Source: Bartonella henselae str. Houston-1
Lineage (GTDB): Bacteria; Pseudomonadota; Alphaproteobacteria; Rhizobiales; Rhizobiaceae
Assembly (NCBI RefSeq): GCF_000046705.1
Contig: NC_005956.1
Coordinates: 1,647,001 to 1,711,000 of the forward strand
Direction: 5' to 3'
DNA: 64,000 nucleotides
A program made the translations under genes and the position numbers. Below, piece after piece: positions 37,463-62,015 of this stretch. Each line of letters begins with the position of its first letter. Within the stretch, counting starts at the first letter, position 1. Under the pieces are notes generated by a model. That model did no database searches. It worked only from the letters and a program-made list of their open reading frames with translations, and had not been told where the DNA came from.

Positions 37463-37615
37463 TCTCCAGACAATTGAACAACATCCGTCCTCCCTCTTGT
37501 TTTGAAGCATCCATACGCTTTCTTTTTCTCTCATTTGCTGGTTGGAATGTCGTTGTCAGCCTCTTTTCTATGCTTACGAGCTTATATATTGCTTCAAAAG
37601 GGCTCCTTTCAGACT
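37463..37615 (+). pseudogene. dsbB 3'-end fragment
   Basis: CAATTGAACAACATCC(G)TCCTCC through GGGCTCCTTTCAGACTATAA repeats dsbB 37096-37250 with about seven substitutions. It encodes SIRFLFLSFAGWNVVVSLFS, matching the dsbB C-terminus, but has no N-terminal spans. The stretch to 38010 otherwise holds GCCATGCACCCTT tandem triplets and no gene. Confidence 0.9.
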
Positions 37616-38014
37616 ATAAAAACGATAACTGCAAAACAAGAGCAAACCCGCATGTTCCCATACTCTCCAACATACCGCCCCTCTTCCCATACCCAGCACC
37701 AGTACAAACCTCTCACAGCACTCCCCAACATACCTGGAAGCCTTGCCATGCACCCTTGCCATGCACCCTTGCCATGCACACCGCCAACACGCCACACCCC
37801 ATACCCTTCATCCTCACCGTCTTATCCACTGAAACGCTTTCTTAGTAGAATCTCCGGCATTTTTCTCATTTTTTCGCATACAGTTTTTTGGCCAGTTTAT
37901 GTTGTTTTTTAGCCAGTCTTTTACTTTCTTCACACACCAACGCTCTTCTTTTTCATCAGTGTTTTTTCAGATTTTTTAATTTTGGATTGACTTTCGTTCT
38001 TTTTCTCTTATATC

Positions 38015-38031
38015 TTTAGAATTATTCTAAA
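38015..38031. promoter_or_regulatory. Irr-type iron control element (ICE) upstream of mbfA
   Basis: TTTAGAATTATTCTAAA is a perfect 7-bp inverted repeat with a 3-bp centre. It matches the ICE consensus (TTTAGAA-N3-TTCTAAA) bound by Irr in Rhizobiales, and lies 18 bp before the mbfA ATG, overlapping the likely promoter or leader. Irr would repress mbfA at low iron or heme. Binding is inferred from the motif and the gene it precedes. Confidence 0.8.
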
Positions 38032-38048
38032 GTGCAAAGGAACAAAAA

Positions 38049-38858
38049 ATGTTGAGATCGTTTTTTTCATTTGTACAACGTAAAGCTTTATCCTTTCGTT
38101 CAGCACAAAGAGTAATATTTCGAGCACTCAAGACAAAAAAACAGCATGCAGCTCTTTATTTGGGATATGCAAGAGCTTTAAAGCCTTATTCTCCCAAGCA
38201 AGCAGCGGTTTTTACAGCAATGGGCATACAAGAGCTTGAAAATTATAAGCAGCTTCTGTGTCTTTCTTGTAGCAATCGTGCTGGAACTATGGATTCAGCG
38301 TGTGGTCGATCTTCTTTTGTAGCAAGAAAGCAACCCCATACATACTCTCGAACCAAAACGACAACGCAAACCACCAAAAAGCCATCGAAAGCGCAAAAAC
38401 AAACACTTTTAACGTGGATTCAGCCTGGCCTTGCAGGCTTAATGGATGGTTCTGTCTCCACGCTTGCCCCGATTTTTGCGGCAGCTTTTGCAACGGGTGA
38501 CACGCATCAAACCTTTTTGATAGGGCTCTCGGCTTCGATTGGAGCAGGTCTTTCGATGGGTTTTACAGAGGCAGCCCACGATGACGGCAAATTATCAGGC
38601 CGAGGTTCTCCATTTAAAAGAGGCCTTGCCAGCGGCATTATGACAACGATAGGAGGATTAGGTCACGCACTTCCTTATTTGATCAGCTCTTTTTATATTG
38701 CCACAATTATTGCCTTTATTATTGTTTTCTTCGAACTATGGGCCATCGTGTGGATTCAAAATAAATTTATGGCGACTCCATTTTGGCGAGCATCTTTACA
38801 GGTGCTGATTGGTGGTGCTCTGGTTTTTGCCACGGGTATTTTTATTGGTAGTATCTGA
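38049..38858 (+). CDS. mbfA: MbfA-like iron exporter with eroded ferritin domain
   Basis: A 269-residue protein. The C-terminal half is a clear VIT1/CCC1-type iron/manganese transporter: TWIQPGLAGLMDGSVSTLAP, IGAGLSMGFTEAAHDDGKLS, GRGSPFKRGLASGIMTTIGG, several spans to the end. In the MbfA family an N-terminal ferritin-like domain of about 150 residues senses or oxidises iron. Here only about 70 recognisable residues remain (ALYLGYARALKPYSPKQAAV, QELENYKQLL), the expected Glu/His ligands are largely replaced, and a Cys/Ser/Thr-rich linker follows. Family length is about 320-330. AAGGAAC is the ribosome-binding site. The ICE just upstream implies Irr control. Confidence 0.85.
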   Translation: MLRSFFSFVQRKALSFRSAQRVIFRALKTKKQHAALYLGYARALKPYSPKQAAVFTAMGIQELENYKQLLCLSCSNRAGTMDSACGRSSFVARKQPHTYSRTKTTTQTTKKPSKAQKQTLLTWIQPGLAGLMDGSVSTLAPIFAAAFATGDTHQTFLIGLSASIGAGLSMGFTEAAHDDGKLSGRGSPFKRGLASGIMTTIGGLGHALPYLISSFYIATIIAFIIVFFELWAIVWIQNKFMATPFWRASLQVLIGGALVFATGIFIGSI

Positions 38859-38904
38859 TATGAATACTAAAACACCTCTCACCCATAAGTTTCCATCATT
38901 GAGT

Positions 38905-39062
38905 TTTCCCAAAAAAAGCCATCAAAAGCACAAAAACAAACACTTTTAACGTGGATTCAGCGGGTATTTGCAAACTGAATGGATAGCTCTATCTCCACGC
39001 TTGCCACAATTGTACAGCAACTCTTGCAACGGATGATACGCATCAAACTTTTTTGAATGGAG
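38905..39062 (+). pseudogene. mbfA internal fragment
   Basis: AAGCCATCAAAAGCACAAAA, CACTTTTAACGTGGATTCAG, TCTCCACGCTTGCC and ACGCATCAAACTTTTTTGA match mbfA 38380-38520 with deletions and frameshifts. It sits 50 bp downstream of the intact gene on the same strand. Confidence 0.85.
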
Positions 39063-39289
39063 AACCCTCTCCCTTTTTAGCATGCATCTTAACAGATTAT
39101 CATTGGGAGGATTTTTTATTTTTACTCCAACGCTTTTTATCGACAAAATAACCAGCACTGAAACAAACAAGCATTGGGGACAATCTCCATGCGTAGTGCT
39201 TTATCAACTTGTTTTATGCGCGACTTTTGTTAGACTAGCAACTGTTTTGTTCTTTGAGATCTATTTTATAGTTTAGAAATGCTTTGATC

Positions 39290-39844
39290 ATGCCTCACAC
39301 TCAAACTGACGCACACCAAAACAATCAAGAGAATTTTTCTTCATCTCTTATTTCTTCTCGCCCTTCACAGCCAATGACATTATCAATCCAGCGTCTTGAC
39401 CATGGACAAGGTTTAGAACTTCCTCACTATGCCACAGCTGGTTCTGCTGGACTTGATCTAAGAGCAGCACTTAGTGAAGAAGAAACGGTTATCCTTGCCC
39501 CCGGACAGCGCGCACTCATTCCAACGGGTCTAATCTTTCACTTGTCTCCTGGGTTTGAAGCGCAAATACGTCCACGCTCTGGCTTAGCCTTAAAACACGG
39601 CATCACCTGTCTAAACACACCTGGAACCATTGATAGCGATTACCGCGGTGAAGTCAAAGTTCTGCTTATCAATTGTGGCCAGGAAGACTTTGCCATAAAA
39701 CGTGGCATGCGCATTGCACAAACGGTTATCGCACCAGTTCTTCAAGTCAATGTGTGCGCCCTTGAACCACAGCAAAACGAGAGCACAAAAAACACTGTGG
39801 GAAACCGAGGAGCAGGAGGCTTTGGCTCAACAGGACACGATTAA
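39290..39844 (+). CDS. dut: dUTP diphosphatase
   Basis: A 184-residue homotrimeric dUTPase that converts dUTP to dUMP and keeps uracil out of DNA. All five family motifs are present: [40 protein letters not shown] and the terminal [12 protein letters not shown]. The N-terminus has about 30 extra polar residues (Gln/Asn/Ser-rich) before the conserved fold. The ATG at 39290 is the likely start; a TTG two codons earlier is possible. Two partial copies follow on the same strand. Confidence 0.96.
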
Positions 39845-39856
39845 GCACCCCATTGC

Positions 39857-40224
39857 GCAAGAAGAAACGGTTATCCTTGCCCCTGGGCAACGCGCACTCA
39901 TTCTAACGGGTCTAATCTTTCACTTGTCTCCTTGAGTTTGAAGCGCAAATACGTCCACGCTCTCACTTAGCGCACGGCATCACCTGTCTAAACACACCTG
40001 GAACCATTGAGTGCGATTAGCCGGTAGTGAAGTCAAAGTTCTGCTTATCAATTGTGGCCAGGAAGACTTTGCCATAAAACGTGGCATGCGCATTGCACAA
40101 ACGGTTATCGCACCAGTTCTTCAAGTCAATGTGTGCGCCCTTGAACCACAGCAAAACGAGAGCACAAAAAACACTGTGGGAAACCGAGGAGCAGGAGGCT
40201 TTGGCTCAACAGGACACGATTAAG
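39857..40224 (+). pseudogene. dut 3' fragment, copy 2
   Basis: Begins at GCGCAAGAAGAAACGGTTAT, equivalent to dut position about 39478. It contains CACTTGTCTCCTTGAG (TGA stop where the gene has TGGG) and a deletion in the 'RSGLALKHG' region, then an intact motif 4-5 end. It cannot encode dUTPase. Confidence 0.93.
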
Positions 40225-40235
40225 CACCCCATTGC

Positions 40236-40611
40236 GCAAGAAGAAACGGTTATCCTTGCCCCTGGGCAACGCGCACTCATTCTAACGGGTCTAATCTTTC
40301 ACTTGTCTCCTTGAGTTTGAAGCGCAAATACGTCCACGCTCTCACTTAGCGCACGGCATCACCTGTCTAAACACACCTGGAACCATTGAGTGCGATTAGC
40401 CGGTAGTGAAGTCAAAGTTCTGCTTATCAATTGTGGCCAGGAAGACTTTGCCATAAAACGTGGCATGCGCATTGCACAAACGGTTATCGCACCAGTTCTT
40501 CAAGTCAATGTGTGCGCCCTTGAACCACAGCAAAACGAGAGCATAAAAGCTATACGGGAAATCGAAGTGCCACTATCGAGGCGCCAAAAACTAAATGCTA
40601 TGGGAATTTAG
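40236..40611 (+). pseudogene. dut 3' fragment, copy 3
   Basis: Almost identical to copy 2 (379-bp period) with the same stop and deletion, so it was amplified after those defects arose. Its end diverges after CAAAACGAGAGCATAAAAG and lacks motif 5. Confidence 0.93.
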
Positions 40612-40669
40612 CACAACAGAACACACGTAAGCAGCCAATAAATGGCAAAGCACACCCTTAACAGTCTAT

Positions 40670-41251
40670 TTATTCTCCAGGAGAAACAATTTCCATCGTA
40701 GCAGTATTGGCGTTTACCACCTCACCGCTTTTCGCTACCACGCCAGCATCGCCTGTAACATTTATCTCCGTAGCTTCTACCGCACCTGCCGTTTTATTAT
40801 TTTTTACACCTCGTGCAGAAATATTGGTAGATTTTTGCAATCCTATAAGACCGACTTTGGTATATCCAGCAGTACGTATTTGATTAAGCAAATCCACCAC
40901 AGTCCCATAATCGATTTCGCTATCGGCTTTGATCAAAACCTTTGTTTCTAGATTCTGATTTGTTTCCTTCAACAAGGCTTCTACAAAGGTTGTTTTGCTG
41001 ACAAGATGATCACCAACATAAAGAGAATGATCTTTTTGCAAGGTCACATAAAGAGGTTCGTCAGGCTGAATCACAGAAGGTGCCTGAGTAATGGAAGGTA
41101 ATTGAACAGGAATAACAGAGGTGGCCAAAGGTGCAGCAACCATAAAAACAATAAGCAACACTAAAACGACATCAATGAAAGGGGTAACATTGATCTCGTT
41201 GTGCAACCCACTCTCATCGAGATCCCAATCTTCATTAAAGTTTGCTTTCAT
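40670..41251 (-). CDS. exbD: ExbD biopolymer transport protein
   Basis: A 193-residue partner of ExbB that couples proton flow to TonB. One N-terminal membrane span with the conserved Asp lies in VTPFIDVVLVLLIVFMVAAP. The periplasmic domain follows (VTLQKDHSLYVGDHLVSKTT, DYGTVVDLLNQIRTAGYTKV). About 45 extra residues at the C-terminus (Asn/Thr/Val-rich, NKTAGAVEATEINV...) go beyond the usual ~140. Its start overlaps the exbB stop (ATGA), so the two are translationally coupled. Confidence 0.92.
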   Translation of the reverse strand: MKANFNEDWDLDESGLHNEINVTPFIDVVLVLLIVFMVAAPLATSVIPVQLPSITQAPSVIQPDEPLYVTLQKDHSLYVGDHLVSKTTFVEALLKETNQNLETKVLIKADSEIDYGTVVDLLNQIRTAGYTKVGLIGLQKSTNISARGVKNNKTAGAVEATEINVTGDAGVVAKSGEVVNANTATMEIVSPGE

Positions 41252-42090
41252 TGTTTATGACTTTTCTGTTGTCTATATCGATCGAGTTCACGGCTCAAGA
41301 GTCTCTCAAGTGCAGCAGCGATATCACCCAAATCATTGCGATAACCGCTCAAAGCACGCATCAGGCTATTATACATAACAACAGCGGGAATAGCCACAAA
41401 AAGGCCGATAGCCGTTGCAAGCAAGGCTTCGGCAATTCCAGGAGCGACGACATCAAGCCGTGTTGTTTGCGATTGAGCAATTCCGATGAAAGAATTCATG
41501 ATCCCCCAAACGGTTGCAAAAAGACCAACGAAGGGAGCAATAGCACCAATAGTTGCAAGAACAGCGCTCCCACATGCAACACGGCGTGTAGCAGCCAGTA
41601 AGCAACGCGACAAAAGTGAATGCACACGCTCCTTCAAGCCCTCATTAACACCACGAGCAGTCTCTCCATATCGCGCAATCTCTGCATAGGGGATAGCATC
41701 TTCACAGACAACCGTTTGTTCCCCTTGTCTTTCACTGGAATCCTCCGTTGCAATAAAGTTGACCTTTTGCGTGGAAAGATACACCTCTTTAAGCATTTCT
41801 TTAAAAAAAAACACACCAGGTCCTTTGCTGTCTTTCAAGCTAGCAGCCAAACGTGTCAGAGTTTGAGCGCTAAGAACCAAGCGCAGTTCATGACGTGCTT
41901 TTCGTTTTGCCAAGGTAATTTCAATGATCTTTACAAAAGCAATTGTCCAAGATGCCAGAGAAGCCAGCAACAACAACACAATAACGGCTTTCACCACAAA
42001 ATCAGCGGCCATAAACATAGAAAAAGGAGAAAGATCATGCGCTGCAAATACAGCAGGTGGAGTGTCTAAAGGTATTGTTTCAGATTCCAT
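41248..42090 (-). CDS. exbB: ExbB biopolymer transport protein
   Basis: A 280-residue MotA/TolQ/ExbB family proton channel. An N-terminal membrane span is at ADFVVKAVIVLLLLASLASW; the diagnostic later spans are at LATIGAIAPFVGLFATVWGI and APGIAEALLATAIGLFVAIP. The insertion between spans 1 and 2 is long. With ExbD it energises TonB-dependent heme or siderophore uptake. No tonB gene is visible here. An extended AT-rich dyad lies about 130 bp upstream. Confidence 0.92.
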   Translation of the reverse strand: MESETIPLDTPPAVFAAHDLSPFSMFMAADFVVKAVIVLLLLASLASWTIAFVKIIEITLAKRKARHELRLVLSAQTLTRLAASLKDSKGPGVFFFKEMLKEVYLSTQKVNFIATEDSSERQGEQTVVCEDAIPYAEIARYGETARGVNEGLKERVHSLLSRCLLAATRRVACGSAVLATIGAIAPFVGLFATVWGIMNSFIGIAQSQTTRLDVVAPGIAEALLATAIGLFVAIPAVVMYNSLMRALSGYRNDLGDIAAALERLLSRELDRYRQQKSHKQ

Positions 42091-42222
42091 TTTTGTCTCA
42101 CATTATTGTGGTTTTCATTGTGGTTTTCACTTTTTGATCTTACAGCTGTACCATCACCCGGCGTAGCATCACTTTGCCACAATACCATTTTCCTTTTCAT
42201 GTCACCCTACGCTGAGTCTAAA

Positions 42223-42902: not shown

Positions 42903-42905
42903 GGC

Positions 42906-43799: not shown

Positions 43800-44530
43800 T
43801 TTAAAAAAAAAGCCTTCACGATCCTTCAAGGGAAGCATGCGCTTTTGAAAAAGCATATCATGATACGCGATAACATCCACCATCTCGTATCACAACAGCA
43901 TCCAGCACTTCCCTCTCATCGCCTCCAGCCCTCATGCGGATAACCAGCTTATTTGTAGAAAACTAGATCACCAACAGAGCTTTTTTTACCAAACATAAAA
44001 CAGCATTGATCAGTGGTTTTGCTTGCCACTCTTCTCCTCAACCAGCAAATTTGCACAATCCTCTTCTCCCTCAAAAACACGCCATTTTCAAGAAAACTTT
44101 TCCTCAACATACTGCGTAAAACTTTGCATTTATACATTCAATCATAATACGGACTACGGGCTCGGTTCCAGAAGCACGAATCACCAGTCTTGCTTTTTTT
44201 CCTAAACGCTGTGTTGCTTGCTCTATTGCTGTTTTGACCGGATTTTTTTTCAGCACATTTTTGTTTTTAATCATTACGTTTTTGAAAATTTGTGGCACAG
44301 GTTCAAAGCGCTGACACAAGTGACTCATAGGAATTTGGATTTCTTGCATACAAGCTAAAATCTGCAAAGCAGCTACTAAACCATCACCCGTTGTACCAAA
44401 ATCACTCAGCACAATATGCCCAGAAGCTTCACCCCCAACATTATATCCCTTCTTGCGCATCGCATCGACCACATAGCGATCCCCTACCTTTGTCCGAACA
44501 AGATCTAACCCTTTGCTGTTTAAGAAGCGC
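43800..44530 (-). pseudogene. glmM 3' fragment
   Basis: 44140-44530 is virtually identical to glmM positions 44745-45127 ([20 protein letters not shown] ... [20 protein letters not shown]). 43800-43945 is a more diverged copy of the terminal 44612-44770. An unrelated insertion separates them. There is no N-terminal or active-site half. It lies directly downstream of glmM on the same strand. Confidence 0.92.
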
Positions 44531-44623
44531 TCGAGCCAAGATCGGTTTCAGAAGCACAGATTACCTGTCGAAGCTCTTTCCTAAGAATGTTACGTAATTA
44601 TTCGATCAATTCTCTCAAAATCT

Positions 44624-46003
44624 TCACGATCTTTCCAGAGAAGCACACGCTTTTGAAAGGGTATCATGATGTGTAATAATATCTACCATCTCTGTCACAA
44701 CAGCATCAAGCATTTCTCTCTCATCGCCTTCCCCCATAATACGAATTACGGGCTCGGTTCCAGAAGCACGAATCACCAGTCTTGCTTTTTTTCCTAAACG
44801 CTGTGTTGCTTGCTCTATTGCTGTTTTGACCGGATTTTTTTTCAGCACATTTTTGTTTTTAATCATTACGTTTTTGAAAATTTGTGGCACAGGTTCAAAG
44901 CGCTGACACAAGTGACTCATAGGAATTTGGATTTCTTGCATACAAGCTAAAATCTGCAAAGCAGCTACTAAACCATCACCCGTTGTACCAAAATCACTCA
45001 GCACAATATGCCCAGAAGCTTCACCCCCAACATTATATCCCTTCTTGCGCATCGCATCGACCACATAGCGATCCCCTACCTTTGTCCGAACAAGATCTAA
45101 CCCTTTGCTGTTTAAGAAGCGCTCGAGTCCAAGATTTGACATAATAGTTGTAACAACACCCTTAGACTGCAAACGTCCGTTTTTATGCCAATGTTCAGCA
45201 ATAACAGCGATCAACTGATCCCCATCAACGGTTTGAGCTTTTTCATCCACAAGAAGAACACGATCTCCATCCCCATCGAGAGCAATACCCACATCAGCGC
45301 GCACTTCATGAACTTTTTGTTTTAAAGAGGCCAAATCGGTTGAACCGCATTTGTGATTAATATTGGTACCATTTGGTGTATCATTAATCGCAAAGACCTC
45401 AGCTCCCAATTCCCATAAAGCACGCGGAGCCGCCTTATAAGCAGCACCATTAGCGCAATCGACAACGATACGCAAATTATCCAAACGAACATCGCGCGGC
45501 AAAGTTCTTTTGGCATATTCGATATAGCGGTAAATATCACCCTCGACCCGTTTTGCATAGCCAATTTCGGCACAACTGGCTAAAGATTTTGAAAGATCTG
45601 TATCGATCAATTGTTCAATTTTTTCTTCTATCTCATCTGAAAGCTTAAAGCCATCAGGACCAAAAAGTTTAATACCATTATCATAGAAGGGATTATGAGA
45701 GGCCGAAATCATCACCCCCAGATCAGCACGCAATGAGCGACAAAGCATAGCAACAGCAGGTGTTGGCACCGGTCCTAATAAGAACGCCTCCATTCCAGCA
45801 GCGGTAAATCCTGAAACCAAAGCATTTTCGAGCATATAACCAGACAAACGGGTATCTTTACCAATTACCACACGACGCGACTGATTTTGTGACCGAAACA
45901 AAATTCCCACAGCCATCCCCACTTTCATAGCAAAATCTGGTGTCATGGGAAAAACATTGGCTTTGCCGCGAATTCCATCTGTACCAAAATATTTTTGTGG
46001 CAT
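44624..46003 (-). CDS. glmM: Phosphoglucosamine mutase GlmM
   Basis: A 459-residue enzyme interconverting glucosamine-6-P and glucosamine-1-P for UDP-GlcNAc synthesis. It begins [20 protein letters not shown]; the phospho-Ser loop is [20 protein letters not shown] (near residue 100), the Mg loop is [14 protein letters not shown], the sugar loop is [10 protein letters not shown] and the phosphate loop is [20 protein letters not shown] precedes this ATG, so the longer in-frame extension to 46078 is unlikely. The C-terminus is slightly longer than usual. Downstream of tilS-ftsH, its usual neighbours. Confidence 0.96.
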
Positions 46004-46206
46004 TCCTCTTTCCTTTATATGCATTTCTTTTCTTGCAGTCTTAACCAAACAGCGCTCTAGTAGTGCAAAATCTCCCAAGAGATCATTAGAGTCTTACCAT
46101 TTTTTCAGACAATCAAGATACCCGCCTCACGTCTTCCTCCTGCACAAATCTCTGATTTTCTAAAGCCCCTGGACCATTGAACATAGTTTTATGCCCTCCA
46201 CATTCA

Positions 46207-46740
46207 ACAGTGTTTTTCTATGACGCATTTTGTCCCTACGCTCGCTTTGAACACTTACTTTAAACACCTAAAAGATAAACCCACAAGCTCTCACACCACA
46301 CACGCATACCTTTGCCAAAAACCACACCGGCTCTCTCTGACATTTTTCTCAATCAAGACACGCATCACAGCCCTTTTTCAAAGTCTCCTAAACCCAAAGC
46401 GGTGCAATACCTGTTTTCATGCCCCTTGGCAAATCGGAAAGCAATACATCACCTCTTTTACATCCTTTTGCAAACTGAGAGCACAGCACTACACACTGTT
46501 TTTCTATGACGCATTTGTCCCTACGCTCGCTTTGAACACCTCAAAGATAACGAAATACCCTCCTACACCACGCACGCATACCTTTGCCAAAAACCACACT
46601 GATTCTCTCTGACATTTTTCTCAATCAAGACACGCATCACAGCCCCTTTTCAAAGTCTCCTAAACCTAAAGCAGTGCACCACCTGTTTTCATGCCCCTTG
46701 GCAAACCCGAAAGTAATACATTACCTTTTATATCCTCTTC
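46207..46740 (+). repeat. Tandem duplication (~290 bp) between glmM and ftsH
   Basis: TTTTTCTATGACGCATTT recurs at about 46213 and 46499. CATACCTTTGCCAAAAACCA, TTTCTCAATCAAGACACGCA, TCACAGCCC and TTTTCATGCCCCTTGGCAAA follow in the same order in both copies. No gene lies here. Confidence 0.9.
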
Positions 46741-46822
46741 GAAAGAGTATTTCAAAACCTTAAGGCAAATTAGCACCTTGTCTTAAAGAATTTGGCGTAG
46801 GATTTTTCCAAGACAGAGTCCC

Positions 46823-50589: not shown

Positions 50590-51447
50590 AGAGGTTTACA
50601 AAAAACAGACTCCAACATTTTCTGATGCTTTGATCTTTCTACAAAAAGTGAACAAAACTCTTTATTCTGTTCAAGAGCAATCATATTCCTTGCTAATTTC
50701 AGCAAAATTTCAGAAGTGTAAAGTTTCTTTTTGTCTGTATACCATACGTTAAGATAAATTTGTGCTGCTTTGTGATAACGTTTTTATCTCAACAACGCTT
50801 CTGCCAACCAAAACAAAGCATCATCACACAAAGGGGCTTTTTTATAACACTGTTGAAAAGTGCAAAAGGCTTTTTCAGCATCAACATAATTGACAGAAAG
50901 AATAAAATTATACCCTTTTTATACAATGCTTGAGAAGAGAAGCTTGAGAAGAGAAAAATTTTCACCATAATGTAGTTCGACATGATCTCTTTCTTCATGC
51001 CTTTTCTCTAACAGGTTATACGCTCCCTTCAGACACCCCTCTGTTTCTTTTGCATCTTTATGCATTTCCTTCAGATGTTCACCGGTCTCGTTCAAATAAC
51101 CATGCATTTCTTGCAAACAGCTTTTATGATTATGGCTTTTCACAACAGCAACATTTTTCTCACCATTTTTGTATTATGCGCTTTCCAACCTTTCTTTATA
51201 ACCTGCACGTTTTCATCCAAATCAACACTCTCAAAAACACAAGAATAAAAAGAAGAGTCTTTTTATCAAAAAACCGATGGAATTGCTTTTGCACATTTTT
51301 CAAACCAGTATGCTCAAGCACCATCGGTATATTATGCAAGAGTTTATCCAAATCATAATCTTTAAAAAGAGTCTTCTGATTTTCTAAAATAAACTCTTGT
51401 CTTTGCAACATCTCCTGAAAAAAGAGATCCGTAGTATTCTTATTCAC
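50590..51447 (-). pseudogene. Degenerate cpoB/ybgF
   Basis: Frame pieces on the minus strand give a coiled region (LQRQEFILENQKTLFKDYDL; GYLNETGEHLKEMHKDAKET). Then comes a TPR-like C-terminus: YNFILSVNYVDAEKAFCTFQ, KKAPLCDDALFWLAEALLR, an in-frame TAA, KRYHKAAQIYLNVWYTDKKK, LLKLARNMIALEQNKEFCSL. That order and spacing match the C-terminal TPR of CpoB/YbgF. The location between pal and tilS is where cpoB sits in Rhizobiales. At least one frameshift and one stop break it. CpoB links cell division to the Tol-Pal system. Confidence 0.7.
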
Positions 51448-52189
51448 CTACATCGGAAGCCTTATCTGCAGCATCAGGAGCAGCCTCATCCATCGCATCA
51501 GAAGATTTATCTGCAGCATCAGGAGCAGCCTCATCCACCGCATCAGAAGATTTATCTGCAGCATCAGGAGCAGCCTCATCCACCGCATCAGAAGGTTTAT
51601 CTGCAGCATCAGGAGCAGCCTCATCCACCGCATCAGAAGATTTATCTGCAGCATCAGGAGCAGCCTCATCCACCGCATCAGAAGATTTATCTGCAGCATC
51701 AGGAGCAGCCTCATCCACCGCATCAGAAGGTTTATCTGCAGCATCAGGAGCAGCCTCATCCATCGCATCAGAAGGCTTATCTGCAGCATCAGGAGCAGCC
51801 TCATCCACCGCATCAGAAGGTTTATCTGCAGCATCAGGAGCAGCCTCATCCATCGCATCAGAAGGCTTATCTGCAGCATCAGGAGCAGCCTCATCCATCG
51901 CATCAGAAGGCTTATCTGCAGCATCAGGAGCAGCCTCATCCATCGCATCAGAAGGCTTATCCGTAGCCCCAGGAGCAGTCTCATCCACTGCATCAGAAGG
52001 CTTATCCGTAGCCCCAGGAGCAGTCTCATCCACTGCATCAGAAGGCTTATCCGTAGCACTAGACTCCGAGTCATGTGTAAAATATTTGGAAACCCAATGT
52101 GCTGCACTTTGAGCAAACGAAGCAGAGCAAGCTATAAATATCGCCATATAAAAGACAATTTTCAATTTTTTTCTACAATACATCCACAT
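51440..52189 (-). CDS. Secreted protein with 13 copies of a 15-residue acidic repeat
   Basis: A 249-residue protein. Residues 1-30 form a signal peptide (KKLKIVFYMAIFIACSASFA, likely cleavage near AQS-A). After SAAHWVSKYFTHDSESS come thirteen 15-residue repeats of the type AADKPSDAVDEAAPD (first two end TAPG), plus a partial ending ASDVGE. GAGGAG lies 6 nt before the ATG at 52189. The repeats are 45 bp, rich in Ala/Asp/Pro and predicted disordered. The gene sits between pal and the broken cpoB, so it may derive from the 5' end of cpoB with repeats expanded. Function unknown; periplasmic or surface. Confidence 0.75.
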   Translation of the reverse strand: MWMYCRKKLKIVFYMAIFIACSASFAQSAAHWVSKYFTHDSESSATDKPSDAVDETAPGATDKPSDAVDETAPGATDKPSDAMDEAAPDAADKPSDAMDEAAPDAADKPSDAMDEAAPDAADKPSDAVDEAAPDAADKPSDAMDEAAPDAADKPSDAVDEAAPDAADKSSDAVDEAAPDAADKSSDAVDEAAPDAADKPSDAVDEAAPDAADKSSDAVDEAAPDAADKSSDAMDEAAPDAADKASDVGE

Positions 52190-52238
52190 GCTTTTCTCCT
52201 CTTAAGAATCAGTCCAATAGTTTAAGCAAACCATTTTT

Positions 52239-54821: not shown

Positions 54822-54954
54822 GTGGAGAGGCAATTTTTACTCTATCGATCCTCCCCTGTACTGTTTTCTTCTTAAGCGTGCTCTCCCCTTCTCCCTGAGA
54901 GCCTCTTAACCGCTTTTGACCAAGCATAAATATCCCTTATTTTTCCCAACCCAT

Positions 54955-54979
54955 AAAAAGCCCCGCATTACAGCGGGGC
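54955..54979 (-). terminator. GC-rich hairpin with T-run on the minus strand
   Basis: GCCCCGC - ATTACA - GCGGGGC is a perfect 7-bp stem. It is preceded by AAAAA on the + strand, which becomes TTTTT after the stem on the minus strand. It would end leftward transcripts coming from the tolB side before they reach yebC in antisense; it could also help end yebC. Confidence 0.75.
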
Positions 54980-56042
54980 CGCAATGTATATTTAAAAAAC
55001 TTTCAATAAAAATCTCAAATTTGAAGGATCCAAAAGCTTTTTGTCAAATTTTTTCCCCATGCAATCATTTCTCCATCATCGTCTGCGGATGTCTACTGCA
55101 ATACCATATTGATTTATAAAGATAATAAACATTCTACAAAGTGCATCCCCCTCGAATACAGTAAGATTTTCTCCTTTCACCCCCGTACATTCAAAATCAG
55201 AAAAAACCATACACCTACACCCCACAAAAGAGATCACCCTATGGATAAAAACCATTTCAGAAAAGAGTCAGCCTCTCATAAACCTTCTCAAAGCAAAAGC
55301 AGGCTACACCATTGGAAGTGAGCAAAGAGTATGATGATGCCGGCTTGCATCTCTCTATAGGAACCTTTCTGACCTTCTCCATACAATTTTGGTTGTACAC
55401 TTGCCCTCTTCAAAGTCACCACGCACCCCTGTCTGCATAGATGTTATCGGCTGTAGTTGTACTTCTCAACACAGAGACAAAAACCGCCTCAAAGCGAAGC
55501 TTCGTATGCATATTACATACGCCAAAACACGTTCAACGAAAACCTTAAGTGTAAATTCCCTAAAAATGCACCTTTCTCAAGGTCCAAAAATCGATCAACC
55601 ACTTTTCCTAATTACCCTAGCTATATCTTTTCCTGCACATTGAAAAATAAATTTTCCAATGCCTTTAAGCCTCTCTTTTTAAATGAACTTCCATTTAAAA
55701 AAATAATGCCCCCCAATTTTAAAATAAATGCCTTCAATAAAACAATGGGTAAGATGTTCACTCCTTAACAAGAGCAACCAACGCGGGCAAAATTATTCCC
55801 AAGGCATAAAAACACTTATCATGAAAACGTAAATGGGGAGGCAATTCACAAGTAATACCCCGCATGCGTAAATAAACCTTTGCTAAGGTATCTTTTATCG
55901 GTTGGCTTTATTGCCAAATCTTTTCTGCTTTATAAGCCTACTGTTTTGCCTTTTTGAGATCAGAACAGAACCGTTTTGAGAAAGAGAGCCTATTGACAAT
56001 AAGCCTTATCCTAAAATACTTGTTACCCCAATAAACCTATTC

Positions 56043-56240
56043 TTATGAGAGCTTGTATGATCTCTCTAAAAGAACAGCCAGCATAACAACAAAGTAAAAG
56101 ATGCGCATTCCATGCATAGGAAAACAATCAGCTAGACAGCCTATCATCATAGGCAGCAGAGCAACGGACAAGACCATAAGCCCCATAGCAAACACCAAGC
56201 ACGCATTTGTCATGCCTTGAGCATTTGTAAAAGAGCACAT
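56043..56240 (-). CDS. Possible small two-span membrane protein
   Basis: A 65-residue frame starting MCSFTNAQGMTNACLVFAMG with hydrophobic stretches (LVFAMGLMVLSVALLPMMIG and MRIFYFVVMLAVLL) and a basic end. AGGAAA is just upstream. In-frame ATGs at 56249 and 56267 are also possible. No family recognised. It lies alone in the tolB-yebC gap, so it could be a relic or chance frame. Confidence 0.35.
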   Translation of the reverse strand: MCSFTNAQGMTNACLVFAMGLMVLSVALLPMMIGCLADCFPMHGMRIFYFVVMLAVLLERSYKLS

Positions 56241-57107
56241 TTTCCTCATCCTATAACGTTGCGTCACAGGATGGATTTTGCTATTATTCGATGACTATTT
56301 TAGAGAATCTTTGTCATGTCCTTACATGACAAGTTTTTTATACCACGTCATTATAACGTTATAACGTTGTGTTTTTGCTTTTTCAATTAGCTGGAGAAGG
56401 TCTGATTGGAGCCAACGAGATAAAAAGCCGAATTTTAAAGGTTTTGGAAGTGAACTATTGGCCAACATAACGCCAGAATATTGAAATCTCAACGGGCATC
56501 ATAGAAACTTATCCTCAAATCGACGATAATACCTTTGTCAATTCTTAGCTGATATTATATTTTCTCACCTCGTAATATTCCTATCCTTTATAAAAGCAAC
56601 CTTTCCACCACACCACCTTGTCTTTCAAACATTAACTTAAAGGCACATAAGCACAAAGGGTTTTCATCAAAAAACCTAAGTGCAAAAGCCCTAAAAGAAT
56701 TCCTGAAAGAATTTTTTCTAAAGAAGTTTTCTCCCTAGAGGGTTTTTCTAAAGGAAATATTCTCGATAGAAATCCCCTTAAGAAAACCTTCTTCCTCCTC
56801 TATGACCTTTTCCATACAATTTTGGTTGTGCGCTTCCCCTCTTAAACACTCACCCCTGTCTTCATAGATGTCATCGGCTGTAGTTTTACCTCATAATACA
56901 CAGACAAAAATCTCCTTAAAGCAGAACACCCCATTGGTATTCTAGACTCCGTAAACCCGATGCTCTCAGCCCTAGAGGAAAATTGAAACGAGAATGATTG
57001 AAGCTCAAGGCAGCAATTCCTTAAAAAAGAAGCTTTTATCCAATCACGAGGAATACGTCTAAAATACTCATGTTAATTGAAGAAGCCTACAATACGTTGG
57101 TATTCTT

Positions 57108-57314
57108 TATAAAGGCAACCTTTCCACCACGCCACCGTGTCTTTCAAACCTTAACTAAAGGCACATAAGCACAAAGGGTTTTCATCAAAAAACCTAAGTG
57201 CAAAAATCCTAAAAGAATTCCTGAAAGGATTTTTTCTAAAGAAGTTTTCTCCCTAGAGGGTTTTTCTAAAGGAAATATTCTCGATAGAAATCCCCTTAAG
57301 AAAACCCTCCACAT
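57108..57314 (+). repeat. ~205-bp direct repeat (second copy at 56585-56793)
   Basis: The two copies agree over nearly every base (CTAGAGGGTTTTTCTAAAGG, GGAAATATTCTCGATAGAAA), differing at a handful of positions, and are 523 bp apart. AAGGCACATAAGCACAAAGG is shared. Non-coding on both strands as far as I can see. Confidence 0.93.
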
Positions 57315-57464
57315 GAAGAACTGTAATAAAAGTGTTATAAAACTTATCACCTATTCAGATAAACCAATTATCGAAAGCAATATCCCCCTTTTTTTAAGTT
57401 ATAGCTACAGTTACGCTTTCTGAGCGCATTGCTTATCTGCTGTTTTTTTATGAAAGAGTTGCCT

Positions 57465-58796
57465 TTATTGTATATTGAGCAATGGGGACCATGCTGGATC
57501 AGAAGCATCATTAGGTGTGGGCAATTGACGTTCATTGCGTCCAGTAATGTCAATTGTGTAGATTTTAGGCCCCATACCCGGATTTTTGCGAAAGAACATC
57601 AACACGCGGCCATTAGGAGCCCAAGTTGGTCCTTCATTGTGAAAACCGGTGGTTAAAATTCGTTCTCCTTGTCCATCAGGATGCATAACGCCAATAGAAA
57701 ATTGTCCCTCCAATTGTTTTGTAAAAGCAATATAATCACCACGTGGAGACCAAATGGGTGTAGAATAACTGCCCTCGTTTGAAGAAATACGCTGGAGATT
57801 GCTCCCATCGGCATTCATCGTATAGATTTGTGGCTTTCCACTGCGATCCGATGAAAAGACGATTTTTGTCCCATCTGGCGAATAAGAAGCAGAAGTATCA
57901 ATGGCAGAAGTTGTGGTAAGACGCGTCATCATGCGTGTACGTAAATCCATAGTGTAAAGATTTGCGCTCCCATCATTTTGCAACAAACTCATGATCACTT
58001 TTTGTCCATCAGAAGAAAAACGCGGAGCAATTGTCATATTGTTAAAAGTTCCTATCAACTCCCTTTGTCCCATTTCAATTTGTTGAAGATAAACATGAGG
58101 CACTTGATTATGTTCGTAAGCCATATAAGTAATTTCTTGCCGTTTGGGTGAAAAACGCGGTGTAAGCACCAATTCACTCCCATCAGAAATGTAGATCAAA
58201 TTTGCTCCATCTTGATCCATAATTGCTAAGCGTTTGATACGTGCATTTTGTGGACCTGTTTCATCGATAAAAACAATCCGTGTATCAAAATAACCACTTT
58301 CTCCGGTCATCTCACTATAGATCTCATCTGCAATCATATGCGCGACACGCCGCCAACGTTCTGTCGCTGTATAAAAGCGTCGTCCTTTCAGTTGTCGCTG
58401 TCCAAAGACATCCCATAAACGAAAATCGACTCTCAAGCGTCCGTCATTTTCTCTTATCACTTGCCCAATGACTAAACCTTGGGCTTTTATTTCTTGCCAA
58501 TAAGGAAAATGGGGTTGACGGTTAGGGTTGGAGATTTTTTCTAAAAAAGAGGCCTTATCAAGCGGTAAAAAAAGTCCTGACCGTTCAAGATCTGCTGCCA
58601 CCACCGCTGCAATCTTCAGTCCAATGGAATCGTTGGAAAAAAAGTCTGTAACCGCAATGGGAATGGGATTAAAATCAGCCGTTGAAATAGTGCCTTTCAG
58701 TTGTGCATGAACAGGAACAGATGAAAAACTTGTAAGCCAAAAAGCACAAATGACAATAAACCAAGAAAAAAATGTGCGTGTCGTCATAATCATCAT
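57465..58796 (-). CDS. tolB: Tol-Pal system protein TolB
   Basis: A 443-residue periplasmic beta-propeller. The signal peptide spans [20 protein letters not shown] to about VPVHA. The N-terminal alpha/beta domain includes [20 protein letters not shown]. The WD40-like propeller repeats carry [33 protein letters not shown] and [11 protein letters not shown]. TolB binds Pal and the C-terminal domain of TolA. AAAGGATACAC precedes the first of two adjacent ATGs. The gene is complete and follows tolA by 43 bp. Confidence 0.96.
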
Positions 58797-58839
58797 GGAT
58801 GTGTATCCTTTTACTGAAGAGCGAAAAATGAAGTATATA

Positions 58840-60027
58840 TCATCGTATTATCTCTTGAAGGGGATCAACATTAAAATCAAAACCCTGTCCCCATAAATCA
58901 TATTGATCACGTGGAAGGTCTGTATAAGGTTGGCATGAAAAAACAGCTGCATAGACCTGCCTTATCATAATAGCTTGCTGACTCTGTTCTCCACTTAAGG
59001 GGTCAATGATGGGATCTCCCATAATCATTCCTTCACGATTTAAGTAAAACCGCAAACGGACAACCGGACGGTTTTTTAAATCTCCGCCAAGAGCAACGAG
59101 TTTAAGCTTTTTTTGAATACATCCCCCAGCGATACTGACTAATGTTTGCGCCATTTTTGTGGTATCATTGATATTTTTTCTTGCCCCCAAAGATTCTAGT
59201 TCGCTGGAGCGCTTTGCCCCCCCTCCTTGGCTACGTGCATGATTGAGAAGATTATTTTCTTCCATTGCCAAAACATCTTCGATGGTCTTTTCTTTCATGC
59301 GCTGATTTTGCTTTTTCACTGCTTGCGCATTTTGCACAGCAGATTCTTTGACGGGTTTTGGTTTAAACTGTGGAAAAGGAAACTTTTCTGGCAGCGCAAT
59401 TTTGGGAAGCTGTTGATATCTTGTTGCTTGATCTCCAGGAACTTTTTTTTCCGTTGAAGCCAAGTCTTGTGGCAATATCCCGCCTTGATTTTTATGCGTT
59501 TGTTGGACTGTCTCAGATGCAACCTTCTCGGCAACCTCTGGATGCACCTCTTCAGGAGATGCTGGCGCAATCTTCTCGGCAACCTCTAAAGGTTTTTCTG
59601 AAACTTTTTCTGCTTTTGTTTCTCGTAATTCTTGTTCCCTAATTACTGGTAAAGATTTTTCCGACGCCTTCTCTTCTCCGGATGATGAAGGGGTTGTTTC
59701 AACGGAGCGTGGTTTTTCTTTTGGTTTAAAAGGCGCAAGACTATCTATCTGTCCCTCCCCAAAATGACGAGCGTCTTCTTTTTCTTGTGGTTTGGTAGTA
59801 GGCTTTACTGCAGGAATTGCACGCACAGGAGCATTCAAGGCACCCTGTTGAGAGGCAAATTCTTCAGTCACAGGAGCAAGAATGATGGGAACTGCTTCCA
59901 ATTGCTGTGGCAAAGAAACGGGATTGGTAAAATAAATACTTCCCCAACTGAGAAAAATCACATGGACAACCAGAGATAAAGCCAAGCCTCGTTTCATGCT
60001 ATGATAAGAGTCTCTGTTCATCTCCAT
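58840..60027 (-). CDS. tolA: TolA (cell envelope integrity protein)
   Basis: A 395-residue protein with a short cytoplasmic N-terminus and one membrane span ([20 protein letters not shown]). It has a long periplasmic Lys/Glu/Pro-rich domain with repeated [24 protein letters not shown] segments. A C-terminal globular domain contains [20 protein letters not shown] and [20 protein letters not shown]. It connects TolQR to TolB-Pal. The start is uncertain: ATG at 60027 or 60021 near the span, or GTG at 60054. Between tolR and tolB. Confidence 0.9.
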
Positions 60028-60099
60028 GGCCTTGCGTTTTTCACTTTTAATCACTGTTTGTTGTTTTTACAAATAACAAGCGATAGTTTCTAAAAAATT

Positions 60100-60552
60100 T
60101 TATTGTGCTAGACTTGCTAAAGCAACCTGTGAAAAACCTGCTTTTTGAAGTTCAGCAAGCAATTGTAACACTTTTTGATATTCAATAGTTTTAGCAGCAC
60201 GTACAAAAATACGTTGTTTTTTTTGTTCAACATCCGTTTTAAGCAGAGTCTTAAGTTGTGCAATCAAAGCTTCAAATGTTTCATAATAGTCTTGATTGAG
60301 AGCCAAGCGCCCTTGCCCATCGAGTGAAACTGTCAATGGCGTTTTCTCCATTTGCACCGGTCCGGCTTGACTACGCGGCAAATCAAGCGGAACACCATTC
60401 ACCAAAAGTGGAGCAGAAACCATGAAAATGATCAACAGCACCAGCATAACATCAACAAAAGGTGTGACATTGATTTCACTCATCAGTTGGCTATGTGAAC
60501 GACGCCGTCTGCGTGTGTTTTTGTGAGCAGAAGAAGCAACAGAAATCCCCAT
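60100..60552 (-). CDS. tolR: TolR
   Basis: A 150-residue ExbD/TolR family protein. After a basic cytoplasmic N-terminus (KNTRRRRRSHSQLMSEINVT) comes the single span with the conserved Asp (VTPFVDVMLVLLIIFMVSAP) and a periplasmic domain (VSLDGQGRLALNQDYYETFE, VFVRAAKTIEYQKVLQLLAE-like). GAGGAG lies before the ATG at 60552, which is why a longer frame to 60630 is rejected. It follows tolQ by 13 bp. Confidence 0.94.
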   Translation of the reverse strand: MGISVASSAHKNTRRRRRSHSQLMSEINVTPFVDVMLVLLIIFMVSAPLLVNGVPLDLPRSQAGPVQMEKTPLTVSLDGQGRLALNQDYYETFEALIAQLKTLLKTDVEQKKQRIFVRAAKTIEYQKVLQLLAELQKAGFSQVALASLAQ

Positions 60553-60565
60553 AGACAACTCCTCT

Positions 60566-61279
60566 TTATAATGGTGAATGAGATGTGAGTGTCTCATCAA
60601 TACGCCGTGAGATAATTGTCGAAAATTCATCGGCGAAGTTTTCTATCTGTGCAATAATTTGTGCACTTTCATTAACAAATTTGTTATAAGCAATAACGGC
60701 TGGGATTGCAGCAAACAAACCAATGGCAGTTGCTAAAAGCGCCTCTGCAATACCTGGTGCAACAATGGCCAATGAGGTATTTTGAGAGGCAGAGATAGAA
60801 AGAAACGACCCCATAATCCCAATAACCGTTCCAAAAAGGCCGATAAAAGGACCAGCCGATCCAAGTGTAGCAAGAAAGCTTAATTTTGCTTCTATTTTTG
60901 CGCTTTCACGCCCTAAAATAAGATCCATAGCCTTATCAATCCTGCTCTGCAAACTTATTGATGTATGGATTCCTTTTTCAAGAGATTTTTTCCATTCCAC
61001 CATTGCTGCCATAAAAACCGCTGATATGCTACTGGTGCGCTGACTTTTACAGGTTGCATAAAGGTCTTCAAGAGGTTTCCCTGACCAAAATATACGTTCA
61101 AATTGTTTTATTTCACGCCGTATTCTCCGATAGGTCAAGATTTTATCAAAAATAATTGCCCAACTCCATATGGAAGCCAGCAGCAACCCAATCATAACAG
61201 CTTTCACAACGAAACCCGCTTGCATAAACAAGTGCACTATGCCTATTGTTTCTGGATTTGTTAGTTCTATATGCGGCAT
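60566..61279 (-). CDS. tolQ: TolQ
   Basis: A 237-residue MotA/TolQ/ExbB proton channel protein. Span 1 is in FVVKAVMIGLLLASIWSWAI. Spans 2 and 3 are in LATLGSAGPFIGLFGTVIGI and APGIAEALLATAIGLFAAIP. The ATG at 61279 (MPHIELT) follows GAGGG; a longer frame to 61309 is less likely. With TolR it powers TolA. Paralogous to exbB at 41248 but shorter in the cytoplasmic loop. Confidence 0.95.
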   Translation of the reverse strand: MPHIELTNPETIGIVHLFMQAGFVVKAVMIGLLLASIWSWAIIFDKILTYRRIRREIKQFERIFWSGKPLEDLYATCKSQRTSSISAVFMAAMVEWKKSLEKGIHTSISLQSRIDKAMDLILGRESAKIEAKLSFLATLGSAGPFIGLFGTVIGIMGSFLSISASQNTSLAIVAPGIAEALLATAIGLFAAIPAVIAYNKFVNESAQIIAQIENFADEFSTIISRRIDETLTSHSPL

Positions 61280-61423
61280 AATTTTTGTCCCTCTAAATGA
61301 ACCTTTCATTTCTTAAAATTCAATAAAACAGATTGTTTTATAGTTTCTAAATTTAACAAAACAAACTGCACTTTGTCTTTAGAGAGAACCACTATCATAG
61401 CACTTTTTTAACAAAGGTCACTT

Positions 61424-61873
61424 TTAAACAACAATTGTTGAAAAAAGCTCTTTAGGTAAACGTCGTGGTTTTCCCTCTTCATTAATGAGGGCAATTTCAA
61501 CTTTTGCTGTGACCAACATGCTCTCACCATGTAGAATATATTGCTCCATAAAAAAGCGTGCGCCTTGAAGACGACTGATGCGTGTTTTAATGGTTAAAAG
61601 ATTGTCGATTTGTGCTGGCCTAGAAAAATTGATTTCCATATGACGTACAACAAAAAAGAGTTTTTCACCCTCAACACCTGATGCTAAAAGCGTGTTATTA
61701 AAACCTGTATCCCGTAAAAACTCTGAGCGTCCCCTTTCAAAAAATTCTAGATAGCGCGCATGGTAAACCACACCAGAAAAATCTGTATCAGCAACATAAA
61801 CCCGAGCCTGAAAATCATGAAAAGCATTTGTATGGCTACTTTTGAAAGTTTTTTTTTCCAGCATCAGCTTCAT
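61424..61873 (-). CDS. ybgC: YbgC acyl-CoA thioesterase
   Basis: A 149-residue hot-dog-fold thioesterase, usually first in tol-pal operons and acting on short acyl-CoA or acyl-ACP at the membrane. The active-site block is YVADTDFSGVVYHARYLEFF, with its Asp and Tyr-His in place; ERGRSEFLRDTG and VRHMEINFSRPAQIDNLL follow. The start used (MKLMLEKKTFKSSH) lies inside a copied piece of the ruvB end; an earlier ATG at 61927 would read through that piece. Complete fold; expression signals may be altered by the duplication. Confidence 0.9.
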   Translation of the reverse strand: MKLMLEKKTFKSSHTNAFHDFQARVYVADTDFSGVVYHARYLEFFERGRSEFLRDTGFNNTLLASGVEGEKLFFVVRHMEINFSRPAQIDNLLTIKTRISRLQGARFFMEQYILHGESMLVTAKVEIALINEEGKPRRLPKELFSTIVV

Positions 61874-62015
61874 CCCATAAAATCGTCTATCATAATGAAT
61901 TATTGAGCGTCTTGCGCAATTGAACATGCTTTTGTGTTAAAACCGTGAAGGCCAGAGCACAAAGCTCTCAATGGCTCCAAGCTTTTTGGGGAAGAATTCC
62001 CCTACGGGCAAATAG
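61860..62015 (-). pseudogene. ruvB 3'-end fragment
   Basis: GCTTCATCCCATAAAATCGT, TTTTTGTGT/CTTTTGTGT, GAGCACAAAGCTC, ATGGCTCCAAGCTTTTTGG and CCTACGGGCAAAT match ruvB 62085-62230 (DDAEDWLVTQ region read on minus) with indels. It lies between ruvB and ybgC on the same strand and overlaps the likely ybgC start. Confidence 0.8.

Follow-up and report, generated by a model that had tools for sequence, protein, structure and literature searches.

Short duplications pile up around a captured phage origin that is known to over-copy its chromosomal neighbourhood in Bartonella henselae and its relatives, and the resulting gradient, which is centred on this run-off replication (ROR) origin, is an association seen both for copies of gene ends and for duplications that lie wholly between genes. 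We analysed 64,000 nucleotides of B. henselae str. Houston-1 (NC_005956.1, positions 1,647,001 to 1,711,000; hereafter the window) and surveyed 140 further stretches (2.8 Mb, window excluded) from six Bartonella genomes, in all of which the ROR position was located. A first-pass annotation of the window had noticed fragments of several genes downstream of their intact parents and had suspected a specific copying process acting on 3' ends. A regional chromosomal process is implicated, and its strongest pattern, the location around the ROR origin, was absent from that annotation. The origin presumably lies inside the window, in the region previously labelled as a prophage primase, where the following features were found.

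9551..10579, + strand: O-like gene of the phage-derived ROR module, presumed site of the ROR origin (match at E≤1e-40; place upstream of the helicase)
10613..12038, + strand: repeats of the O-like gene 3' end (10613-10869, 11721-12038) and related repeats reaching into the helicase 5' region (self-alignment)
11889..14741, + strand: ROR helicase/primase (Pfam Toprim and AAA_25), the former "prophage primase"
15355..16088, + strand: degraded helicase 3'-end copies (15355-15807, 15965-16088; self-alignment and gene-independent scan)

Of 61 sampled Bartonella genomes, 48 contain a match to the O-like gene at E≤1e-40, and 9 of 10 genomes searched contain a match to the helicase/primase. This conserved pairing of an O-like gene with an adjoining phage helicase is that of the ROR module, which is defined for mammal-associated Bartonella, and the place of the O-like gene upstream of the helicase agrees with "gene 4" of the module in the available part of its description (PMC3610622). 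In B. henselae and B. grahamii the region has been reported to over-replicate and, according to the accessible sections of three accounts, amplification peaks at the ROR origin and the frequency of transfer by the gene transfer agent BaGTA varies with distance to it (PMC2697382, PMC3610622, PMC6899734). In excerpts of a further study, synonymous change is reported as no more than slightly raised within the amplified segment (PMC3483213).

Elsewhere in the window, self-alignment placed every copy of a named gene downstream of its parent and on the same strand, as originally described, together with two purely intergenic repeats.

36683..37255, + strand: dsbB, intact parent (Pfam DsbB)
37471..37818, + strand: dsbB codons 139-189 (3' end) repeated in tandem, with intergenic tail (self-alignment)
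38049..38858, + strand: mbfA-like gene (VIT family), parent (Pfam/NCBIfam search)
38917..39055, + strand: inserted copy of mbfA codons ~110-158 of 269 (self-alignment)
39284..39844, + strand: dut, intact parent (Pfam/NCBIfam search)
39823..40570, + strand: dut 3' end copied twice head-to-tail, unit ~384 nt (self-alignment, scan)
43809..43994, - strand: older glmM relict, a decayed copy of the 3' end (self-alignment, 74%)
44143..44542, - strand: 99% copy of glmM codons 297-430, within the older glmM relict (self-alignment)
44624..46078, - strand: glmM, intact parent (NCBIfam TIGR01455)
46207..46744, no strand: intergenic tandem duplication between ftsH and glmM, 84%, offset 286 (self-alignment)
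56582..57309, no strand: intergenic direct repeat downstream of tolB, 95%, offset 519 (self-alignment)
61816..62010, - strand: decayed ruvB 3'-end copy in tandem, overlapped by the 5' region of the following ORF (61424-61927; self-alignment, scan)
62079..63164, - strand: ruvB, intact parent (Pfam/NCBIfam search)

Decaying copies of the gene's own 3' end lie in tandem at dsbB, dut, ruvB and the phage helicase, so the earlier observation stands for these genes, the primase included. The dsbB copy (37097-37427 against 37471-37818, 74% identity) has a length/offset ratio of 0.89 and has a counterpart in B. koehlerae (L005). The dut locus consists of three head-to-tail units (starting at 39439 and 39823, the third at 40202-40570; 88-94% identity, ratio 1.95), ruvB is repeated at 68% (61816-62010 against 62040-62223, ratio 0.82), and the helicase 3' end recurs at 64% (14525-14973 against 15355-15807) and again at 15965-16088. 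The description as 3' halves fails for the other two genes. The mbfA copy (38376-38520 against 38913-39056, 83%) is an internal segment, not tandem (ratio 0.27), inserted 55 nt past the stop codon, with a few bases of microhomology at both junctions as read by eye. The main glmM copy (44143-44542 against 44735-45135, 99%) is inserted 82 nt past the stop codon and covers codons 297-430 of 466 without the true 3' end, which is present in the older relict at 43809-43994; its ratio is 0.68, but the relict interrupts the repeat. The right junction of this copy is in-register homology; of its two junctions, one is homologous and the other hardly so. Both the mbfA insertion and the main glmM copy are absent from B. 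koehlerae, in which the sequence is uninterrupted at the mbfA insertion site, and in none of the 23 named loci holding this part of mbfA was a second copy of it found. The parents, earlier described as intact, are open reading frames; the mbfA match to its NCBIfam model starts only at model position 151, with a score below the cut-off.

Outside the window, gene-level events were counted as same-strand best hits within 400 nt of parents of ≥120 aa, and parents with a nearby paralog of ≥60% length were dropped. The gene set came from a second gene-calling model, the first having missed dsbB and mbfA. This gave 25 downstream and 6 upstream events. The length/offset ratio was ≥0.5 in 19 of the 25 downstream events, so that the second copy starts about where the first ends in most cases, not all. 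The strict count omits events with a ratio <0.5 or without an alignment: downstream L120, L156, L237, two in L238, and L229, for which no nucleotide alignment was obtained; upstream L146, L183, L197 and L231. The first three of these upstream events look orthologous. The helicase repeat was left out as lying inside the window. Strict tandem cases numbered 19 at 3' ends and 2 at 5' ends (p=0.0002), the former including one internal segment by gene position (L152:11949) and one of the latter (L200) belonging to the same array as a 3' case. By gene family the bias is 14:2, because orthologous events merge (L132/L203, L133/L204 and L153/L174/L219) and L218 is ruvB again. A gene-independent scan, in which two-ended and whole-gene cases were assigned to neither side, gave a weaker bias of 19 to 5 (p=0.007), and a broader count in four genomes, window excluded, gave 23 downstream 3' and 5 upstream 5' events (gap ≤1,500 nt; best hits within 4 kb, some of them likely phage or paralog cases). 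As the first-pass annotation had argued, tandem duplication alone leaves both ends equally often: random placement yields 39,920:40,556, or 1:1. The counts, which are of fixed copies only, depart from this, and the excess of 3' copies thus extends beyond the window. The claim of 3' fragments only holds for the named housekeeping genes and fails genome-wide, as 5' cases exist (e.g., L152:15647-16155). In eight named loci of divergent species, which represent one orthologous region and are not independent of the window, the 3' bias was slight or absent (2 three-prime and 4 five-prime by scan, 5 and 3 by gene). Within-gene repeats keep the reading frame, with offsets divisible by 3 in 32 of 38, vs 11 of 36 for intergenic and 6 of 24 for 3' duplications. 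We infer that the 3' bias stems from selection removing 5' and within-gene copies rather than from mutation; gene-tail copies probably dominate since they do little harm.

The frequency of downstream gene copies falls with distance from ROR, with 12 events among 151 genes within 100 kb, 5 among 128 at 100-200 kb, 4 among 367 at 200-400 kb and 4 among 1109 beyond 400 kb, i.e. from 7.95 to 0.36 per 100 genes (p=5e-5 by permutation of stretches, the smallest value possible with 20,000 shuffles). Intergenic-only duplications (n=29) follow the same course, at 1.45 and 1.09 per 10 kb of intergenic DNA on the two sides within 100 kb, 0 at 200-400 kb on either side and 0.08-0.20 beyond (p=5e-5; 0.00035 when weighted by intergenic length), and this gradient is stable without arrays of period <100 nt. 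The few 5' duplications also lean towards ROR (n=5, p=0.021), within-gene repeats show a weak gradient only (p=0.023), and whole-gene paralog arrays, a negative control, show none (n=20, p=0.77). Duplications thus concentrate around an over-firing origin. Genome G000 has its near events around ROR at 1.58-1.80 Mb; G057 has no gene-level event within 200 kb and three at 238-356 kb, the gene-independent scan adding one 3' case 23 kb from ROR; and one of two intergenic duplications in G034 is far from ROR. Coding density is lower near ROR, and relaxed selection there may contribute to the gradient. We found no published report of a ROR-centred gradient of small duplications in a search of openly accessible literature.

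From this pattern we infer that ROR/BaGTA activity causes the gradient, and how the junctions form. The explanation we favour, and consider fairly probable, is that the ROR/gene-transfer-agent cycle generates local duplications at a high rate and that selection then removes gene-body and 5'-end copies. DNA near the origin would be repeatedly over-replicated, broken, packaged by BaGTA and recombined back, which would make short local duplications and templated insertions (~100-800 nt, same strand, mostly head-to-tail) far commoner there. Founder repeats may arise from fork collapse with template switching, or from unequal or illegitimate recombination of extra copies, and homology between old copy and parent would permit later re-expansion, a step suggested by the dut arrays, ruvB of genome G026 and the glmM relict. 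Selection would purge copies that break frames or disturb a start or promoter and tolerate those past stop codons, and mostly 3' fragments beside intact parents would be left for that reason. A variant that may hold alongside this, and to which we give an appreciable chance short of even, is that duplications arise in recipients, where linear 14-kb BaGTA DNA, whose import frequency declines with distance from ROR, undergoes recombination that is either unequal or homologous at one end and illegitimate at the other. The glmM junctions show such an asymmetry and, in the available text of PMC6899734, transfer frequency is distance-dependent, uptake runs via ComEC/DprA and donors lyse; the microhomology at both ends of mbfA resembles template switching more, without being decisive.

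It is unlikely that the duplication rate is uniform and copies merely survive better in a junk-rich plasticity zone, with the 3' bias due to purifying selection and ROR non-mutational. Intergenic DNA is indeed more abundant close to ROR (14 stretches within 100 kb hold 135 kb of it, 84 stretches beyond 400 kb hold 421 kb) and selection clearly filters, given the frame-preserving offsets of within-gene repeats, but purely intergenic duplications, which should be near-neutral anywhere, are still about nine-fold more frequent within 100 kb than beyond 400 kb when counted per kb of intergenic sequence. Outward ROR forks colliding with head-on transcription might instead place breaks at gene 3' ends; counted by eye, 13 of the 16 strict 3' cases no further than 200 kb from ROR are head-on, but so are 180 of the 276 genes there (65%; one-sided p=0.14, on which head-on orientation was rejected as the cause of the bias), and dsbB, mbfA and dut are co-directional with the ROR fork, which makes this improbable. 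The same-strand, downstream placement of the named copies would follow from a process acting specifically on 3' ends, for instance if mRNA tails were reverse-transcribed or displaced 3' strands captured. However, repeat units run through the stop codon into intergenic DNA head-to-tail (dut, L191, L192), the main glmM and mbfA copies lack a 3' end, and purely intergenic duplications share the gradient, the very finding expected to refute it; judged from sequence, the copies do not have the structure of reverse-transcribed insertions, which would end at the transcript 3' end and lack intergenic or array structure. Such a process is very improbable and unneeded, the geometry being mostly ordinary tandem duplication, with internal-segment insertions at mbfA and glmM. 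The chance of an assembly artefact is negligible, as the genome is a single contig and related fragments with other boundaries occur in independently assembled relatives.

Among the 61 sampled genomes, downstream fragments were counted by eye for dut in 22, glmM in at least 11 and ruvB in at least 5. The glmM count omits G055, where the second hit appears to be a gene end shifted out of frame; the dut count includes G026, whose parent is perhaps broken, and G017, G047 and G057, whose copies extend back to codons 20-25. A control gene 780 kb from ROR had no second match in any of the 61 genomes; L145, considered as another far control, was discarded as a multi-copy family. The 13 genomes without a ROR-gene match have no dut, glmM or ruvB fragment among the matches listed, and the same is true of 13 moderately divergent genomes (glmM identity 78-85%) that do have the ROR gene (G004, G005, G009, G015, G016, G022, G025, G030, G031, G033, G045, G051 and G060). 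ROR presence is therefore not sufficient for fragments, and phylogeny confounds their absence where the ROR gene is missing.

Classical tandem duplication with unequal recombination has contiguous head-to-tail geometry and expands arrays; alone, it yields 5' and 3' copies equally often and has no position effect. Both of these expectations fail in Bartonella unless selection and a local rate increase are added. The pattern is similar to re-replication-induced gene amplification (RRIGA) in yeast, in which, according to the accessible part of PMC3536649, extra firing of one origin gives breakage-prone forks and head-to-tail duplications of the re-replicated region. RRIGA joins repeats flanking the re-firing origin, whereas the Bartonella units are mostly 0.1-0.8 kb, lack the origin, lie up to ~200 kb to either side and are seen as evolutionary footprints in a bacterium. 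Work on replification, or elevated chromosomal replication complexity, likewise puts forward DNA breakage by local over-replication as a possible source of tandem duplications, but in the available sections this is argued as models without a natural genomic footprint (PMC5053440). The origin, amplified region and distance-dependent transfer of the ROR/BaGTA system coincide with the duplication gradient, but the portions of its accounts available to us contain no mention of small duplications or gene-end copies forming a gradient (PMC2697382, PMC3610622, PMC6899734). A broader reading, which we hold only tentatively and think rather unlikely, is that the domesticated phage origin and gene transfer agent form a region-specific structural mutator over ~200 kb to either side, with duplications and templated insertions spread by the agent and spare gene tails next to intact essential genes serving as a source for new C-termini or genes. 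If the association is causal, gene-tail fragments beside essential genes would be explained without an exotic mechanism, a structural mutation gradient would be added to a system hitherto credited with targeted recombination, and Bartonella would offer a natural bacterial counterpart of re-replication-induced duplication, legible from genome sequence alone.

The same-strand downstream copies of dsbB, mbfA, dut (two), glmM, ruvB and the phage helicase were confirmed both by self-alignment of the window and by searching each predicted gene against its own flanks, in a genome represented by one contig of 1,931,047 bases. The copies of dsbB, dut, ruvB and the helicase are head-to-tail repeats of the 3' end together with intergenic sequence. 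The first-pass annotation had described each copy as a fragment of the parent's own 3' half; strand and position stand, but the mbfA copy (codons 110-158 of 269) and a 99% identical glmM copy (codons 297-430 of 466) both lack the gene end, as their codon ranges show. The closest named relative among the matches listed, from which near-identical records may be absent, is B. koehlerae (95% in glmM). It has a dsbB fragment, several named species carry dut fragments and the sampled genome G048 carries a ruvB fragment; judged by these relatives, the window copies other than those of glmM and mbfA are older.

38049-38858: mbfA-like protein, whose match to the MbfA model begins only at position 151 and scores below the cut-off
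38917-39055: extra henselae sequence forming the mbfA insertion

Many relatives align with the mbfA-like protein across all 269 residues, and the N-terminal part of the Bartonella protein may differ. At the insertion, B. koehlerae is uninterrupted (koe 16131/16132), and few-base microhomology was seen at both junctions by eye against the koehlerae site. The copy is 83% identical to its parent versus 92% between the henselae and koehlerae parents over the same segment; it may thus predate the species split and have been lost from B. koehlerae. No second copy was found in the 23 of 39 named loci that hold the segment. The 99% glmM copy is nested in a decayed glmM relict of greater age, which in B. 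koehlerae lacks the insertion. With 99% identity to its own parent and 93% to the koehlerae gene, the copy postdates the split. Homology is almost absent at the left junction, and at the right one it is in register with the relict. From their sequences, both insertions look like template switching, or recombination, that returned to the original site.

Outside the window, we surveyed at regular steps 40 stretches of 20 kb from the window's genome (G000) and 20 of the same length from each of the Bartonella genomes G013, G036, G058, G034 and G057 (140 stretches, 2.8 Mb, six genomes). A duplicated fragment was counted when its parent encoded ≥120 aa, had no nearby paralog and lay ≤400 nt away. 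The gene-based count was 25 downstream versus 6 upstream events, in agreement with the earlier proposal that 3' and 5' fragments are unequal in number. Events with tandem geometry (length/offset ≥0.5) numbered 19 versus 2 (p=0.0002), although one of the two upstream cases (stretch L200) comes from the far end of an array counted among the downstream cases as well. With orthologues merged into gene families and ruvB left out, 14 versus 2 remained (p=0.004). A gene-independent scan, which also found two-ended and whole-gene cases that are left aside here, gave 19 over the 3' end versus 5 over the 5' end (p=0.007), and the two sets of 19 three-prime cases overlap largely but incompletely. The claim of exclusively 3' fragments holds for the window's housekeeping genes but not genome-wide, as 5' cases exist. 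Random placement of the observed unit lengths on the same gene maps yielded 39,920 3' and 40,556 5' cases; the arrangement of genes therefore does not account for the bias. Eight named loci from divergent species (L031-L038, grouped by lower identity) gave 2 three-prime and 4 five-prime cases by the scan, and 5 and 3 in the gene-based count; for the other 31 the figures were 20 to 6 and 21 to 3, respectively.

Along the chromosome the events are spread very unevenly, being concentrated around the run-off replication (ROR) origin. Passages of PMC3610622 and PMC2697382 describe an ROR module in which a phage helicase is preceded by an O-like gene, close to the Bartonella gene transfer agent (BaGTA), and a passage of PMC3483213 gives 200-300 kb as the ROR-amplified region of B. 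henselae.

9551-10579: upstream (O-like) gene of the candidate ROR module
11889-14741: phage helicase of the module (the 'prophage primase')
4734-5675: C-rich array of ~45-nt units, just upstream of the ROR genes, running into the 3' end of ORF 5596-6312 (minus strand)

The first two features match the published module by gene content, gene order and conservation (48/61 sampled genomes), rather than by locus tags. Distances were measured from the O-like gene of each of the six genomes, with stretches binned by midpoint. Downstream events lay on average 210 kb from ROR versus 508 kb when stretches were permuted within genomes (p=5e-5). A tandem scan (offset 100-1500, length/offset ≥0.5) further identified 29 purely intergenic duplications outside the window, cases at orthologous sites of different genomes each being counted separately.

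Duplications by distance from ROR: downstream events per 100 genes; intergenic duplications per 10 kb of intergenic DNA on the two sides
<100 kb: 7.95 (12/151); 1.45 and 1.09
100-200 kb: 3.91 (5/128); 0.34 and 0.45
200-400 kb: 1.09 (4/367); 0 and 0
>400 kb: 0.36 (4/1109); 0.08 and 0.20

The intergenic gradient (p=5e-5) persisted when weighted per intergenic kb (p=0.00035) and was unchanged with periods <100 nt dropped (28 cases remaining); in the window's genome alone, 9/11 intergenic cases fell in 9/40 stretches. Whole-gene paralog arrays, the negative control, had no gradient (n=20, p=0.77), while within-gene repeats (n=36, p=0.023) and 5' cases (n=5, p=0.021) had weak ones.

Two further repeats were seen in the window.

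51316-52148: 45-nt repeat present as thirteen overlapping register copies, largely within ORF 51440-52189 (minus strand), which by its sequence is a predicted repetitive protein
33979-34612: imperfect palindrome, 64% identical to its own reverse complement over 660 aligned columns

Survival of the repeats appears to be decided by selection, since offsets were divisible by three in 32/38 within-gene repeats, compared with 11/36 intergenic and 6/24 3' repeats. Within 200 kb of ROR, outside the window, duplications numbered 23 intergenic, 15 3', 3 5' and 5 two-ended; the random-placement null for these classes is 134,738 : 40,600 : 38,272 : 35,661. Scaled to the intergenic count, ~7 are expected per gene end, indicating both a 5' deficit and a 3' excess. 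A copy of a 5' end would add a start site and shift the promoter, while a copy past the stop codon would spare promoter, start and frame; harm from the former and harmlessness of the latter would explain the bias. The 3' excess could arise because a copy paired with a conserved gene remains recognisable for longer than a pair of intergenic copies that both drift, although a true 3' hotspot is also possible.

Across 61 sampled genomes, listings counted by eye had adjacent downstream fragments of dut in 22, of glmM in at least 11 and of ruvB in at least 5, with no upstream fragments of these genes among the matches listed; a 324-aa gene ~780 kb from ROR had a single match in 61/61 and no second. 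No dut, glmM or ruvB fragment was among the matches listed either for 13 genomes without an ROR-gene match at E≤1e-40 (in one, G012, dut itself was not found) or for 13 intermediate-divergence genomes with the ROR gene. ROR presence is therefore insufficient for fragments, and in this comparison ROR is confounded with ancestry. Tandem duplications beside glmM numbered 1.46 per 20 kb in the eight divergent loci and 2.25 in the other 31, the former exceeding the 0.58 per 20-kb stretch that the six genomes show more than 400 kb away from ROR.

In the model of PMC6899734, ROR-amplified DNA is cut and packaged, then enters recipient genomes by recombination at a frequency that depends on ROR distance; the same source reports that Tol/Pal takes part in BaGTA uptake. 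In the window, the ORF listing shows no minus-strand ORF ≥80 aa at 54850-57465, between tolB and a yebC-like gene, and thus no obvious pal directly downstream of tolB. Head-to-tail copies could come from over-replication forks that break and then copy again, or from recombination in the recipient; the data fit either route. Once present, old copies may offer homology for further events. The glmM locus is an example, and the arrays of dut and ruvB in genomes G058 and G026 point the same way. PMC3536649 describes head-to-tail copies from re-firing of one origin in yeast, and related over-replication models are argued more generally in PMC5053440. Among the papers listed by our literature searches, none describes the ROR gradient or gene-tail copies for Bartonella, and an earlier mention is possible. 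Two arrays lie near ROR in G036.

L191:6087-8460: ~five units of 316 nt from the 3' end of a gene, 97% identity
L192:3138-4245: ~six units of 182 nt from the 3' end of a gene, 83% identity

Both arrays would be promising sites at which to seek strain variation.
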